Part shown: piece by piece, positions 29,892 to 33,958 of the stretch | How the letters are laid out: each line of letters starts with the position of its first letter | Numbering within the stretch: the stretch's first letter is position 1 | Translations under genes and position numbers: made by a program | Assembly: GCA_021793215.1 (NCBI GenBank) | Contig: JAJYTE010000019.1 | Coordinates: 1-49,720, forward strand | Length of the DNA: 49,720 nt | From: Bacillota bacterium | GTDB lineage: Bacteria; Bacillota; Sulfobacillia; JAJZYS01; JAJYTV01 | Direction of reading: 5' to 3' | The notes under the pieces: generated by a model | Seen by the model: only the letters and a program-made list of their open reading frames with translations | The model's database searches: none | What the model was told of the DNA's origin: nothing

Positions 29892-30679
29892 CGCGCGGCG
29901 AGTTCCTGGGCAAAGCTGAGCTGCCGCGGCCCGAACTCGTGCAACTGCTTTGCGCCCAGTTGGGGCTCGAGCGTGCGCAGGTCTACCTCGCGCCGGAGCA
30001 GGAGATCCCCCCCGCAGACCTTCGGCACCTCAGTGAACAGGTGACGCGACGCCGGGACGGCTGGCCGCTGCAGTACCTCGTCGGCAGCGCATGGTTCTGG
30101 TCGCAGCGGCTGCGCGTCGGCCCCGGCGTCCTCGTGCCGCGTCCCGAGACGGAGACGCTGGTGCAGGAGGCGATCGAGCGTGCGCCCGTCGGCGGGCGCG
30201 TCGCCGACATCGGCACAGGCTCGGGCGCGATCGCCCTGGCGCTCGGGATGGAGCGACCCGATCTGCGCATCACCGCTGTCGAGAAGTCCCGGCTCGCGCT
30301 GCGCTACGCCCGGGAGAACCTCGCGGGGATCGCGGACGTGCTCGAGGGAGATCTGCTCGCACCACTGCGCGAGCCGCAGGAGATGATCGTGTCGAACCCG
30401 CCGTACGTTGCGCTCTCGCAGTACGCCGAACTGCCGGCGGACGTGCGCCGCGAGCCGCGCGGCGCGCTCCTGGGCGGAGCGGACGGGCTCTCCGTGGTAC
30501 GCCGGATCGTGCGAGGAGCGCCGGGGCGCCTCGCGGGAGGCGGCTGGCTGCTGCTTGAGGTGGGTCAGGGCCAATCCGCCGCGGTGCAGGAGCTGATGGC
30601 CGGCGCGGGATTCCAAGACCTCTTCGCGCAGGCGGACCTCGCCGCCATCCCGCGCGTCGTGGGAGGGCGCCTGCGGTGA
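29888..30679 (+). CDS. prmC: Release factor glutamine methyltransferase
   Basis: PrmC (HemK) methylates the glutamine of the GGQ motif in RF1 and RF2 with SAM. The 263-residue product shows the HemK N-terminal helical part, [42 protein letters not shown] (SAM loop) and the [13 protein letters not shown] active-site motif. GTG 29888 overlaps the prfA stop and its own stop overlaps the next gene (GTGA), part of a coupled chain of four genes. Confidence 0.95.
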
Positions 30680-31656
30680 GAACGCTGCTCCTCGCGCCCG
30701 ATGCCGTCGGCATCGCGCGCGGCGCCGCCCTGCTGCGCGCGGGCGGCCTCGTGGCGTTCCCCACGGAGACCGTCTACGGCCTCGGTGCGAACGCCGCAGA
30801 CCCGAGTGCCGTCGCGCGCGTCTACGCTGCGAAGGGGCGCCCCGCCGACAACCCGCTGATCGTCCACGTGCCAAGCGTCGAGTCGATGGCCGAGTGGGCC
30901 GTCCCGGACGAGCGCGCGCGCGAACTCAGCAAAAGATTCTGGCCCGGACCCTTGACGCTCGTGCTGCCGGGGCGCGGTCTGATGGCCGCGCAGACCCTGG
31001 CGCTGCGCATGCCGCGCCATGAGCACGCGCTCTCGCTGCTGCGTGCGGCGGATCGACCGATCGCCGCCCCGTCGGCGAACCGCTCCGGCCGGCCGAGCCC
31101 CACGTCGGCCCGGGCTACGCTTTCGGAACTCGGCGGGCGCATCGAGGCGGTCCTCGACGGGCAGGACGCGGAGGTCGGAATCGAGTCGACCGTCCTTGAC
31201 TTGACGGAGCCGCAGGCGGCCATCCTTCGCCCGGGCGGCATCTCGTCGGAGGAGATCGGCCAGGTGCTCGGCGAGAAGGTGGGGCAGGCGGCGCGCCACG
31301 CGCGCTCACCGGGGGTGCGGTACCGCCACTACGCGCCGGACGTCGACGTGCTGCTGCTCTCGGGCGATGACCGGTCGGCGCTGAGGGCGGCCGCGGAGCA
31401 GGCCCTTTCTGCGCGCGGCGGTTCTTGGTACATTGGCCTTGCGGACACGGCCCCTGCAGGAGCGCGCGGCCTCGTGGCAGCCAGCGTCTCCGACCTGCAG
31501 AAGGCGCTCTACGCTGCCCTCTTGCACGCAGAGCGCGAGGGGGCGCCGCTGGTGGCGGTTCTGCCGCCCGCGTCGCCCGAAGCCGCCGGAGTGATCGACC
31601 GCATGGTTCGCGCTGCCGGCAAAGAAGTCCGCGCACGTGAGGATCTGGAGGAGTGA
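30676..31656 (+). CDS. ywlC: Threonylcarbamoyl-AMP synthase (Sua5/YwlC)
   Basis: This enzyme makes threonylcarbamoyl-AMP from threonine, bicarbonate and ATP for the t6A37 tRNA modification. The 326-residue product has the TsaC/YrdC domain (LLRAGGLVAFPTETVYGLGA, KGRPADNPLIVHV, FWPGPLTLVL, APSANRSGRPSPTS) and a C-terminal Sua5 domain after the linker SPGVRYRHYAPDV, so it is the long Sua5 form, as in B. subtilis YwlC. GTG 30676 overlaps the prmC stop. The next gene begins about five bases past its stop. Confidence 0.95.
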   Translation: MRTLLLAPDAVGIARGAALLRAGGLVAFPTETVYGLGANAADPSAVARVYAAKGRPADNPLIVHVPSVESMAEWAVPDERARELSKRFWPGPLTLVLPGRGLMAAQTLALRMPRHEHALSLLRAADRPIAAPSANRSGRPSPTSARATLSELGGRIEAVLDGQDAEVGIESTVLDLTEPQAAILRPGGISSEEIGQVLGEKVGQAARHARSPGVRYRHYAPDVDVLLLSGDDRSALRAAAEQALSARGGSWYIGLADTAPAGARGLVAASVSDLQKALYAALLHAEREGAPLVAVLPPASPEAAGVIDRMVRAAGKEVRAREDLEE

Positions 31657-31661
31657 CGGCG

Positions 31662-32552
31662 ATGCAGCGCGTCGTGTTCCTTTGCAGCGGCAACACCTGC
31701 CGCAGTCCGCTTGCGGCGGCGATCGCGAAGTCGCTCCGGCCCGACGCGGAGGTGCTCTCCGCGGGCCTCAATGCGAATGACGGCAGCCCGGCCGCGGAGG
31801 CGGCGCGCCAGGTGGCGCGCGAGCGTGGGCTCGACCTCGAGTCGCATCGCGCGCGCAGCGCGGTCGCGACGCTGTTCGACGGCGCGGCGGTCGGCCTCGC
31901 GATGACGCGGCGCCTGGCAGATGAGGCGCGCCGCCGTTTCCCCGACGCCGCGGATCGCATCTTCAGCCTCGGAACCTACGCCGGCGCGCCCGCAGAGGAC
32001 GTCGACGACCCGATCGGCCAGTCCGAGGGGGCCTACCGCATGGTCGCCTCACAGGTGTCGGACCTCCTTCGGGCGGCGCAGACGCGCAGCGGCTGGCTGT
32101 TCCTGCAGTCGGTCGGCATGGGTTCGGACCACGCAGGGCTCATCCTGCGGCGCGAGGTGCTCGCCGCGCTGCGCCAAGAGGGCATCCCGACGAAGGACTA
32201 CGGCACCGACAGTGCGGAACGCTGTGACTACCCGGACTTCGCGAAGCTCGTGGGCGATGCGGTCGCGACGGGGGAAGTCGGGGCGGGGATCCTCGTTTGC
32301 GGGACGGGCATCGGCATGTCGATCGCGGCCAACAAGATCCTTGGGGTGCGCGCAGCGGTGGTCGCGGAAGGACTGGGCGCCGAACTCTCGCGGCGGCACA
32401 ACGACGCGAACGTCCTCTGCCTTGGCGCGCGCCTGACCGGTACGGAACTGGCGCGTGAGGCGGCGCTTCGCTTCCTGCGCACCAGCTTCGACGGCGGCCG
32501 GCATGCGGACCGGGTAGCCAAGATCTCGGCGATGGACGTCCAGGGTTCCTGA
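31662..32552 (+). CDS. ywlE-rpiB: Fusion of YwlE-like low-molecular-weight arginine phosphatase and ribose-5-phosphate isomerase B
   Basis: One 296-residue reading frame joins two genes that are neighbours in B. subtilis. Residues 1-140 are a low-molecular-weight phosphatase: CSGNTCRSP places the nucleophile at Cys8 and arginine at 14, with Thr12 at the position that makes YwlE specific for phospho-arginine; VDDPIG gives the acid aspartate. Residues about 150-296 are RpiB: GSDHAGLILR, YPDFAKLV, the catalytic cysteine in LVCGTGIGMSIAANK (Cys213) and SRRHNDANVLCLG. The linker is short (about 141-150). ATG 31662 is preferred (GGAGGAG 8 bases before) over GTG 31653 that overlaps the previous stop. 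RpiB interconverts ribose and ribulose 5-phosphate; YwlE reverses McsB protein-arginine phosphorylation. Confidence 0.9.
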   Translation: MQRVVFLCSGNTCRSPLAAAIAKSLRPDAEVLSAGLNANDGSPAAEAARQVARERGLDLESHRARSAVATLFDGAAVGLAMTRRLADEARRRFPDAADRIFSLGTYAGAPAEDVDDPIGQSEGAYRMVASQVSDLLRAAQTRSGWLFLQSVGMGSDHAGLILRREVLAALRQEGIPTKDYGTDSAERCDYPDFAKLVGDAVATGEVGAGILVCGTGIGMSIAANKILGVRAAVVAEGLGAELSRRHNDANVLCLGARLTGTELAREAALRFLRTSFDGGRHADRVAKISAMDVQGS

Positions 32553-32588: not shown

Positions 32589-33179
32589 ATGGAAGGCATG
32601 GACTTTGCGGGGGGCGTCGCGAACTTTCAGGAGCTGGCCGGGGCGGCGCGCGCGGCGCTCGCCGAACTCGTCGCGTCGGCGGGGCTGCGGCCGGGCGACC
32701 TCGTCGTGGTGGGGGGTTCCACGAGCGAGGTCATGGGCAAGCGCATCGGCAGCGCGCCGGGCCTCGAGGTCGGGGAGCAGCTGGCGCAGGGGCTCATAGA
32801 GGCGGCCGAGACCGCTGGTGTCGAGCTCGCTGTGCAGTGCTGCGAGCATCTGAACCGCGCGCTCGTCGTGCCGCGGCACGTGCTCTCAGTCCGCGGCCTC
32901 ATGGAGGTCACGGCGGTGCCTGTCCCGGGGGCGGGTGGCGCGCTTGCCGCGGCGTACTACGGATCGCTCGGCCGACAGGCATGCCTCGCGGCCTCGATCG
33001 CGGCCGACGCGGGCCTCGACATCGGGCAAACGCTGATCGGAATGCACCTGAGGGCGGTGGCCGTCCCGGTGCGCCTCAGCGTGCGCAGCATCGGCGCGGC
33101 GCATCTCACCGCTGCGCGCACTCGGCCTCCCCTGATCGGCGGGCCGCGCGCCCATTACCCGGAGGGCACGGCGCGATGA
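32589..33179 (+). CDS. ywlG: UPF0340 / YwlG-family protein
   Basis: The 196-residue product has the YwlG marks: LRPGDLVVVGGSTSEVMGKR, then AVQCCEHLNRALVVPR and GLDIGQTLIGMHL. The family is widespread in Bacillota and its biochemical role is not established. The syntenic place after ywlE/rpiB is the same as in B. subtilis. The initiator is ATG 32589 or the in-frame ATG 32598; neither has a strong ribosome site close by. Its stop overlaps the start of the dCMP deaminase gene (ATGA). Confidence 0.9.
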   Translation: MEGMDFAGGVANFQELAGAARAALAELVASAGLRPGDLVVVGGSTSEVMGKRIGSAPGLEVGEQLAQGLIEAAETAGVELAVQCCEHLNRALVVPRHVLSVRGLMEVTAVPVPGAGGALAAAYYGSLGRQACLAASIAADAGLDIGQTLIGMHLRAVAVPVRLSVRSIGAAHLTAARTRPPLIGGPRAHYPEGTAR

Positions 33180-33619: not shown

Positions 33620-33640
33620 CCGCTGGAAAGGCGAGTGGAC

Positions 33641-33958
33641 ATGGCTGACACGAAGCAGGTACACCTTCCGAAGCTCGACGGGCTGACGCCGACGCTGGAG
33701 TCGACGGCGCTGAAGGTCATGGAGGAAGCAGGGGAGCTCGGCGCGGCGATCGGCAAGGTGCGGGGGCTCTCGGGCGAGCGCGTCGCGCTTGACGACCGTG
33801 CGGCGATGCGTCACGTGGCGGAGGAACTGCTGGATGTTGCGCAGACGGCCGTAACCATGATGTTCGTTCTCGAAGAGTCTTACGGAGTAGAAATCGGTGA
33901 GATCGTTCAGGCGCACGTTGAAAAGCTTGTTAGGAAGGGATACTTGCGCAAAGATTGA
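33641..33958 (+). CDS. MazG-like nucleotide pyrophosphohydrolase family protein
   Basis: The 105-residue product has the all-alpha NTP pyrophosphohydrolase pattern: EEAGELGAAIGKV (E-E-x-x-E type metal motif) and EELLDVAQTAVTMMF (E-x-x-D). Single-domain members act as dimers or tetramers and clear non-canonical nucleotides. It follows the dCMP deaminase gene by 21 bases, so it may be co-transcribed with it in nucleotide metabolism. ATG 33641 is preferred to GTG 33635; GGAAAGG lies upstream. Confidence 0.85.
   Translation: MADTKQVHLPKLDGLTPTLESTALKVMEEAGELGAAIGKVRGLSGERVALDDRAAMRHVAEELLDVAQTAVTMMFVLEESYGVEIGEIVQAHVEKLVRKGYLRKD

Follow-up and report, generated by a model that had tools for sequence, protein, structure and literature searches.

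In the 49,720-nucleotide stretch of DNA that we analyzed (the window), positions 31662-32552 of the forward strand encode a low-molecular-weight (LMW) phosphatase and a ribose-5-phosphate isomerase in one stop-free frame of 296 codons. From its sequence, the product is probably a bifunctional enzyme with two domains, an arginine phosphatase of the YwlE/PtpB type followed by a type-B ribose-5-phosphate isomerase (RpiB), and it would have arisen by in-frame joining of ywlE and rpiB. We propose that these genes were neighbors in an operon and were joined before the family diverged. Because many bacteria have the same architecture, the fusion is a conserved, uncharacterized two-enzyme protein of a type that is already known, rather than a new system. 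Taken singly, the finding in the window amounts to two ordinary enzymes joined in a conserved gene fusion.

The fused reading frame and its neighbors

The start codon (ATG at 31662) lies 8 nt downstream of GGAGGAG (31647-31653, forward strand), which reads as a Shine-Dalgarno-like sequence and overlaps the 3' end of the ywlC frame (stop codon TGA at 31654-31656). Residues 4-137 (31671-32072) match the LMW-PTP family (PF01451, LMWPc; E = 2.7e-23), and residues 151-288 (32112-32525) match the RpiB family (PF02502, LacAB_rpiB; E = 8.2e-51). Both matches exceed Pfam's curated cut-offs. The C-terminal half also matches the NCBIfam equivalog for rpiB (TIGR01120), with 164.2 bits against a cut-off of 138.65. 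The junction between the domains, residues 138-150 (32073-32111), consists of the end of a helix (residues 122-146) and a short turn.

Both active sites are intact. The P-loop of the phosphatase is C8-S-G-N-T12-C-R14-S and the general acid is D116; in a 36-row alignment, C8..R14-S15 and D116-P117 are invariant. The catalytic residues of the isomerase are all present (D156/H157, C213, T215, H246/N247, and R280/R284). The initial annotation had described a ywlE-type and an rpiB-type protein in one 296-residue frame, with Cys8, Thr12, Arg14, and Cys213 in place. The translation, Pfam, NCBIfam, and six relatives all bear this out, and D116 and the remaining isomerase residues can be added to the list.

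The gene order around the fusion is mntP-rpmE-prfA-prmC-ywlC-[fusion]-ywlG-comEB-mazG-wecA-wecB-atpI-atpB. In two relatives (G003 and G005), the arrangement is the same, from a glpX-type gene and mntP through atpB. Most of these neighbors were named by Pfam, and glpX, rpmE, atpI, and atpB were named by eye. Directly upstream is ywlC/Sua5, a threonylcarbamoyl-AMP synthase (30676-31656, forward strand; PF01300, E = 2.7e-53), and directly downstream is a ywlG-like DUF436 protein (32589-33179, forward strand; PF04260, E = 2e-63).

Conservation within the family

The initial annotation had named separate genes in all close relatives as a finding that would refute the fusion, and this is not what we saw. 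In a search of 101 genomes, we found full-length, stop-free matches (68-79% identity) in six other genomes from the same genus or family (G001, G003, G004, G005, G007, and G008), and ORF analysis found a single frame in all 7 of the family's genomes that have a full-length match. Three other genomes from the family (G002, G006, and G009) lack a full-length match, but these assemblies are 76-90% complete, so the absence is uninformative.

Comparing the window gene with its six relatives gave dN of 0.10-0.33 and dS of 0.8-1.2 for both halves; with dS near 1, the dN/dS ratios are approximate. Purifying selection acts on both halves. Conservation is lower in the 13-residue junction than in the halves, although G144-W145-L146 is invariant in the seven genomes. 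No ATG, GTG, or TTG in the junction is shared across these seven genomes, and the ATG at residue 153 is found in the window genome only, so we rejected an internal start that would yield a separate RpiB.

These observations also bear on whether the fusion is a sequencing or assembly artifact, with a stop codon or frameshift lost between two real genes. We found nothing in favor of this explanation. It is refuted by six independently assembled relatives that have diverged at the nucleotide level and still show the same single frame, and neither the lack of a shared internal start nor the selection on both halves fits with it. We consider an artifact to be extraordinarily improbable.

Structural model

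We used AlphaFold2, with an alignment of 36 fused proteins, to model the monomer (mean pLDDT of 96.3 and pTM of 0.91). In the model, helix 122-146 of the phosphatase reaches into the junction, and the first strand of RpiB starts at residue 151. A short and mostly helical junction would link the phosphatase to the isomerase. The high pTM of this monomer prediction suggests that the two halves have a defined relative placement. The halves of the model match crystal structures of YwlE/LMW-PTP and of RpiB, respectively.

RpiB-family enzymes are dimers with shared active sites, so the fusion would be expected to bring two phosphatase domains together in one oligomer.

Specificity of the phosphatase half

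The N-terminal half would reverse the phosphoarginine marks that are made by the kinase McsB. PMC8001253 (citing Fuhrmann et al.) reports that threonine at the fifth position of the P-loop makes the enzyme selective for phosphoarginine and that isoleucine makes it selective for phosphotyrosine. The window protein has threonine at this position (Thr12), and so do its relatives in the same family (family f1).

Both mcsA and mcsB, which the initial annotation had proposed to look for, are present in the same genome, together with ctsR and clpC, which encodes a ClpC-like ATPase. The window and the ctsR-mcsA-mcsB-clpC cluster are on separate contigs (the cluster is on C23; L114, 1633-6092). McsB matches the protein arginine kinase model NF002194 with 392.3 bits (cut-off 385), and the McsA-like protein, which adjoins mcsB, scores 161.8 bits, which is below its cut-off of 210. 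The cluster is followed by a DisA-like frame, named by eye (L114, 479-1525), and Spo0A is also present in the genome. The only other match to the LMW-PTP fold in this genome is a thioredoxin-type arsenate reductase (ArsC; TIGR02691, 181.4 bits against a cut-off of 174.3), whose gene is flanked by ArsR-like and transporter-like frames (named by eye). Because the sole other match is ArsC, the fusion is the only evident counterpart of YwlE, and the only evident candidate to oppose McsB, in this genome. This inventory rests on one genome, which is estimated to be 97.66% complete.

The initial annotation took Thr12 as the mark of phosphoarginine specificity. The threonine is there and the determinant is published, but the marker is weaker than was implied. 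Fusions from a sister family in the same order (f4: L012, L013, and L014, from genomes G014, G013, and G012) have isoleucine or valine at this position, and McsB is present in these genomes. This rules out a strict pairing of the threonine with McsB, and it makes the residue suggestive, rather than proof, of phosphoarginine specificity. The f4 proteins may have changed substrate, or these bacteria may rely on another enzyme.

Might the N-terminal half instead be a conventional phosphotyrosine phosphatase or an arsenate reductase? Specificity is hard to argue from a single residue, and the named NCBIfam models that this half does match are for phosphotyrosine phosphatases (Wzb-type) and ArsC, all at scores far below the cut-offs. 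On the other hand, its closest solved relatives are the YwlE arginine phosphatase 4pic and 4egs, the P-loop threonine and McsA/McsB are both present, and the genome encodes a separate ArsC. We think that either of these identities is unlikely and that this half is probably an arginine phosphatase.

RpiA and the degenerate isomerase halves

The isomerase half would interconvert ribose-5-phosphate and ribulose-5-phosphate. The window genome also encodes one separate RpiA, a second ribose-5-phosphate isomerase that would make the activity of the isomerase half redundant. Across family f1, the RpiB half is intact and RpiA was found in 6 of the 7 genomes, and the one without it is 78% complete. In contrast, we found no match to RpiA in any of the 13 genomes tested from outside f1 that have a fused and intact RpiB, so those bacteria probably rely on the fused RpiB as their isomerase. 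RpiA is present in two genomes whose fused RpiB is degenerate (G010 and G096) and in one from which RpiB is missing (G082).

G010 belongs to the same order as the window genome and is the one sampled genome of family f2, and G096 is from outside the order (family f47). In both, the phosphatase half is intact and the frame is kept, yet Cys213 of the isomerase is replaced by Ala, His157 by Met or Gly, and His246 by Trp or Asp. In G010 (L152, 871-1707), the phosphatase retains its Cys, Thr, Arg, and Asp, while the isomerase has VAPTGIG instead of VCGTGIG, Met for His157, and Trp for His246; the fusion is preceded by a Sua5-like frame (seen by eye). In G096 (L158, frame 2-2095), a long repeat insert rich in Pro, Ala, and Arg splits the degenerate RpiB half. 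We found no other match to RpiB in either genome. Several isomerase residues are also missing from L110.

These two relatives imply that bifunctionality is not universal for this architecture. The simplest reading of the sequences is that, in G010 and G096, RpiA does the work that would otherwise fall to the RpiB half. Their degenerate halves fit with a retained non-catalytic role or with decay. Each case is represented by one genome, and one of them has the long repeat-rich insert, so the RpiB half may be decaying. Family f1 has both RpiA and an intact RpiB half; it could be at an earlier stage or could use both isomerases.

A bolder idea is that, within this order, the RpiB half became a structural or ligand-sensing module: with RpiA serving as the isomerase, a pseudo-isomerase would control protein-arginine dephosphorylation. 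If so, this half could lose catalysis (as in G010 and, outside the order, G096) while still oligomerizing or regulating the phosphatase. We think that this is unlikely. The relatives with dead isomerases are a natural experiment on the purpose of the isomerase half, and they are the best reason to go further.

Distribution of the fusion

Across the phylum, 26 of 398 sampled genomes, from 13 families, have a full-length stop-free match; this count was taken from a table, and part of the entries were inspected individually. Among the 101 class-level relatives, at least 17 have a fusion with a recognizable RpiB. Fused forms are also found in Verrucomicrobiota and Omnitrophota, while in the four Planctomycetota in the sample, the two genes are adjacent yet separate. 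The initial annotation had suggested a survey of high-GC Bacillota. The fusion does occur there, but it is also spread across the phylum and present in other phyla, so we rejected the idea that it is confined to this group. A search of plasmids gave two records with coverage of 80% or more of the query.

Fused and separate forms are interleaved in the trees of either half. The best trees have 9-11 changes of state, of which at least 3-4 are required by well-supported branches. A single origin for all of the fusions is not favored, and counts of gains and losses are approximate. For instance, within family f30, G040 has the fusion and its near relative G058 has a stop codon between the genes. 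Conversely, the fusion is kept throughout f1 and also in f2, f3, and f4, the remaining families of this order. The length of the junction varies from 10 to 39 residues across lineages.

The phosphatase has other fusion partners as well. In family f40, it is joined in frame to a MazG-like protein (L156, 621-1535, from G082; L157, 319-1581, from G062; and L215, 466-1185, from G495, which runs to the end of the contig), and in G494, from the same family, the two are separate. The MazG-like part is homologous to positions 33635-33958 of the window. No match to RpiB was found in the two f40 genomes tested. In Verrucomicrobiota, L041 (4971-7142) encodes LMW-PTP, RpiB, and then serine hydroxymethyltransferase (SHMT) in one frame, according to Pfam. 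Similar long open frames are present in L040, L042, L043, and L062; L041 is the one in which Pfam was used to test for the triple fusion.

Why are the genes fused?

The fusion may be largely neutral. Under this explanation, it is a by-product of adjacency that leaves two independent enzymes on one chain, which is compatible with our view of the protein as a bifunctional enzyme. Repeated changes between fused and separate states fit with easy fusion of operon neighbors, and the variable junction and the joining of the phosphatase to other genes (MazG in f40, SHMT in Verrucomicrobiota) point the same way. The initial annotation had offered that fusion might be a bystander of adjacency, and the alternation of fused and separate forms is what we would expect if it is mainly that. 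On the other hand, retention across f1, f2, f3, and f4 and the invariant Gly-Trp-Leu in the junction would fit with constraint, without requiring it. We give this explanation an even chance of being correct.

Alternatively, selection might have favored the fusion because the RpiB half serves as an oligomerizing or sugar-phosphate-sensing module, which would tie arginine dephosphorylation to the state of the pentose-phosphate pathway. The fusion is fixed throughout f1, its junction there is short, partly conserved, and confidently modeled, and fusions recur in many families. Also, the dead RpiB halves of G010 and G096 stay in frame behind an intact phosphatase. However, those are the single-genome cases that might reflect decay, close relatives can differ in whether the genes are fused, and the f40 fusion, in which RpiB was not found, suggests that operon neighbors fuse promiscuously. 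We doubt that the fusion was selected in this way. The initial annotation's tie between protein-arginine dephosphorylation and pentose-phosphate flux is unsupported as functional coupling; fused and separate forms alternate even within families such as f30. Regulatory coupling to this flux is possible but likewise unsupported. The fusion is a natural test of physical coupling between the erasure of arginine phosphate and pentose metabolism.

Comparison to known proteins

Our literature search, which covered few subscription journals, found no paper about the LMW-PTP-RpiB fusion as a two-enzyme protein (we do not mean to imply that there are none), no paper about the structure 4EGS, and no biochemistry on the window protein or on any full-length fusion. 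PDB entry 4EGS is titled as a low molecular weight PTP of T. tengcongensis, yet its molecule name is "Ribose 5-phosphate isomerase RpiB". Also, it aligns end to end, over 145 residues, with the N-terminal half of a fused protein, L140 from family f111 (E = 1.9e-68). From the name and this alignment, we infer that the parent gene of 4EGS is fused, which would mean that the architecture has been in public databases since 2012. 4EGS has the same P-loop threonine as the window protein (CTGNTCRSP). It is 34% identical in the structural match, and it is a structure of the phosphatase half alone.

The window protein resembles YwlE from B. subtilis and G. stearothermophilus and PtpB from S. aureus: they share the LMW-PTP fold, a P-loop of the form C-x-G-N-T-C-R-S with threonine at the fifth position, and the aspartate as general acid. 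The window fusion and YwlE are both encoded in a ywl gene neighborhood. However, YwlE is a stand-alone chain of about 150 amino acids, whereas the C-terminal helix of the window's phosphatase continues into the RpiB domain. The RpiB domain is 48-49% identical to the RpiB proteins from E. coli (1nn4/2vvr) and C. thermocellum (3he8), with TM-scores to the target of 0.88-0.97, and all of the catalytic positions are shared. Those structures are of stand-alone proteins, while the window's RpiB carries the phosphatase as an N-terminal extension. Finally, the triple fusions in Verrucomicrobiota begin with the same two domains, in the same order, as the window protein, and add SHMT; their P-loops have isoleucine, which is the phosphotyrosine-type residue, or valine where the window protein has threonine.
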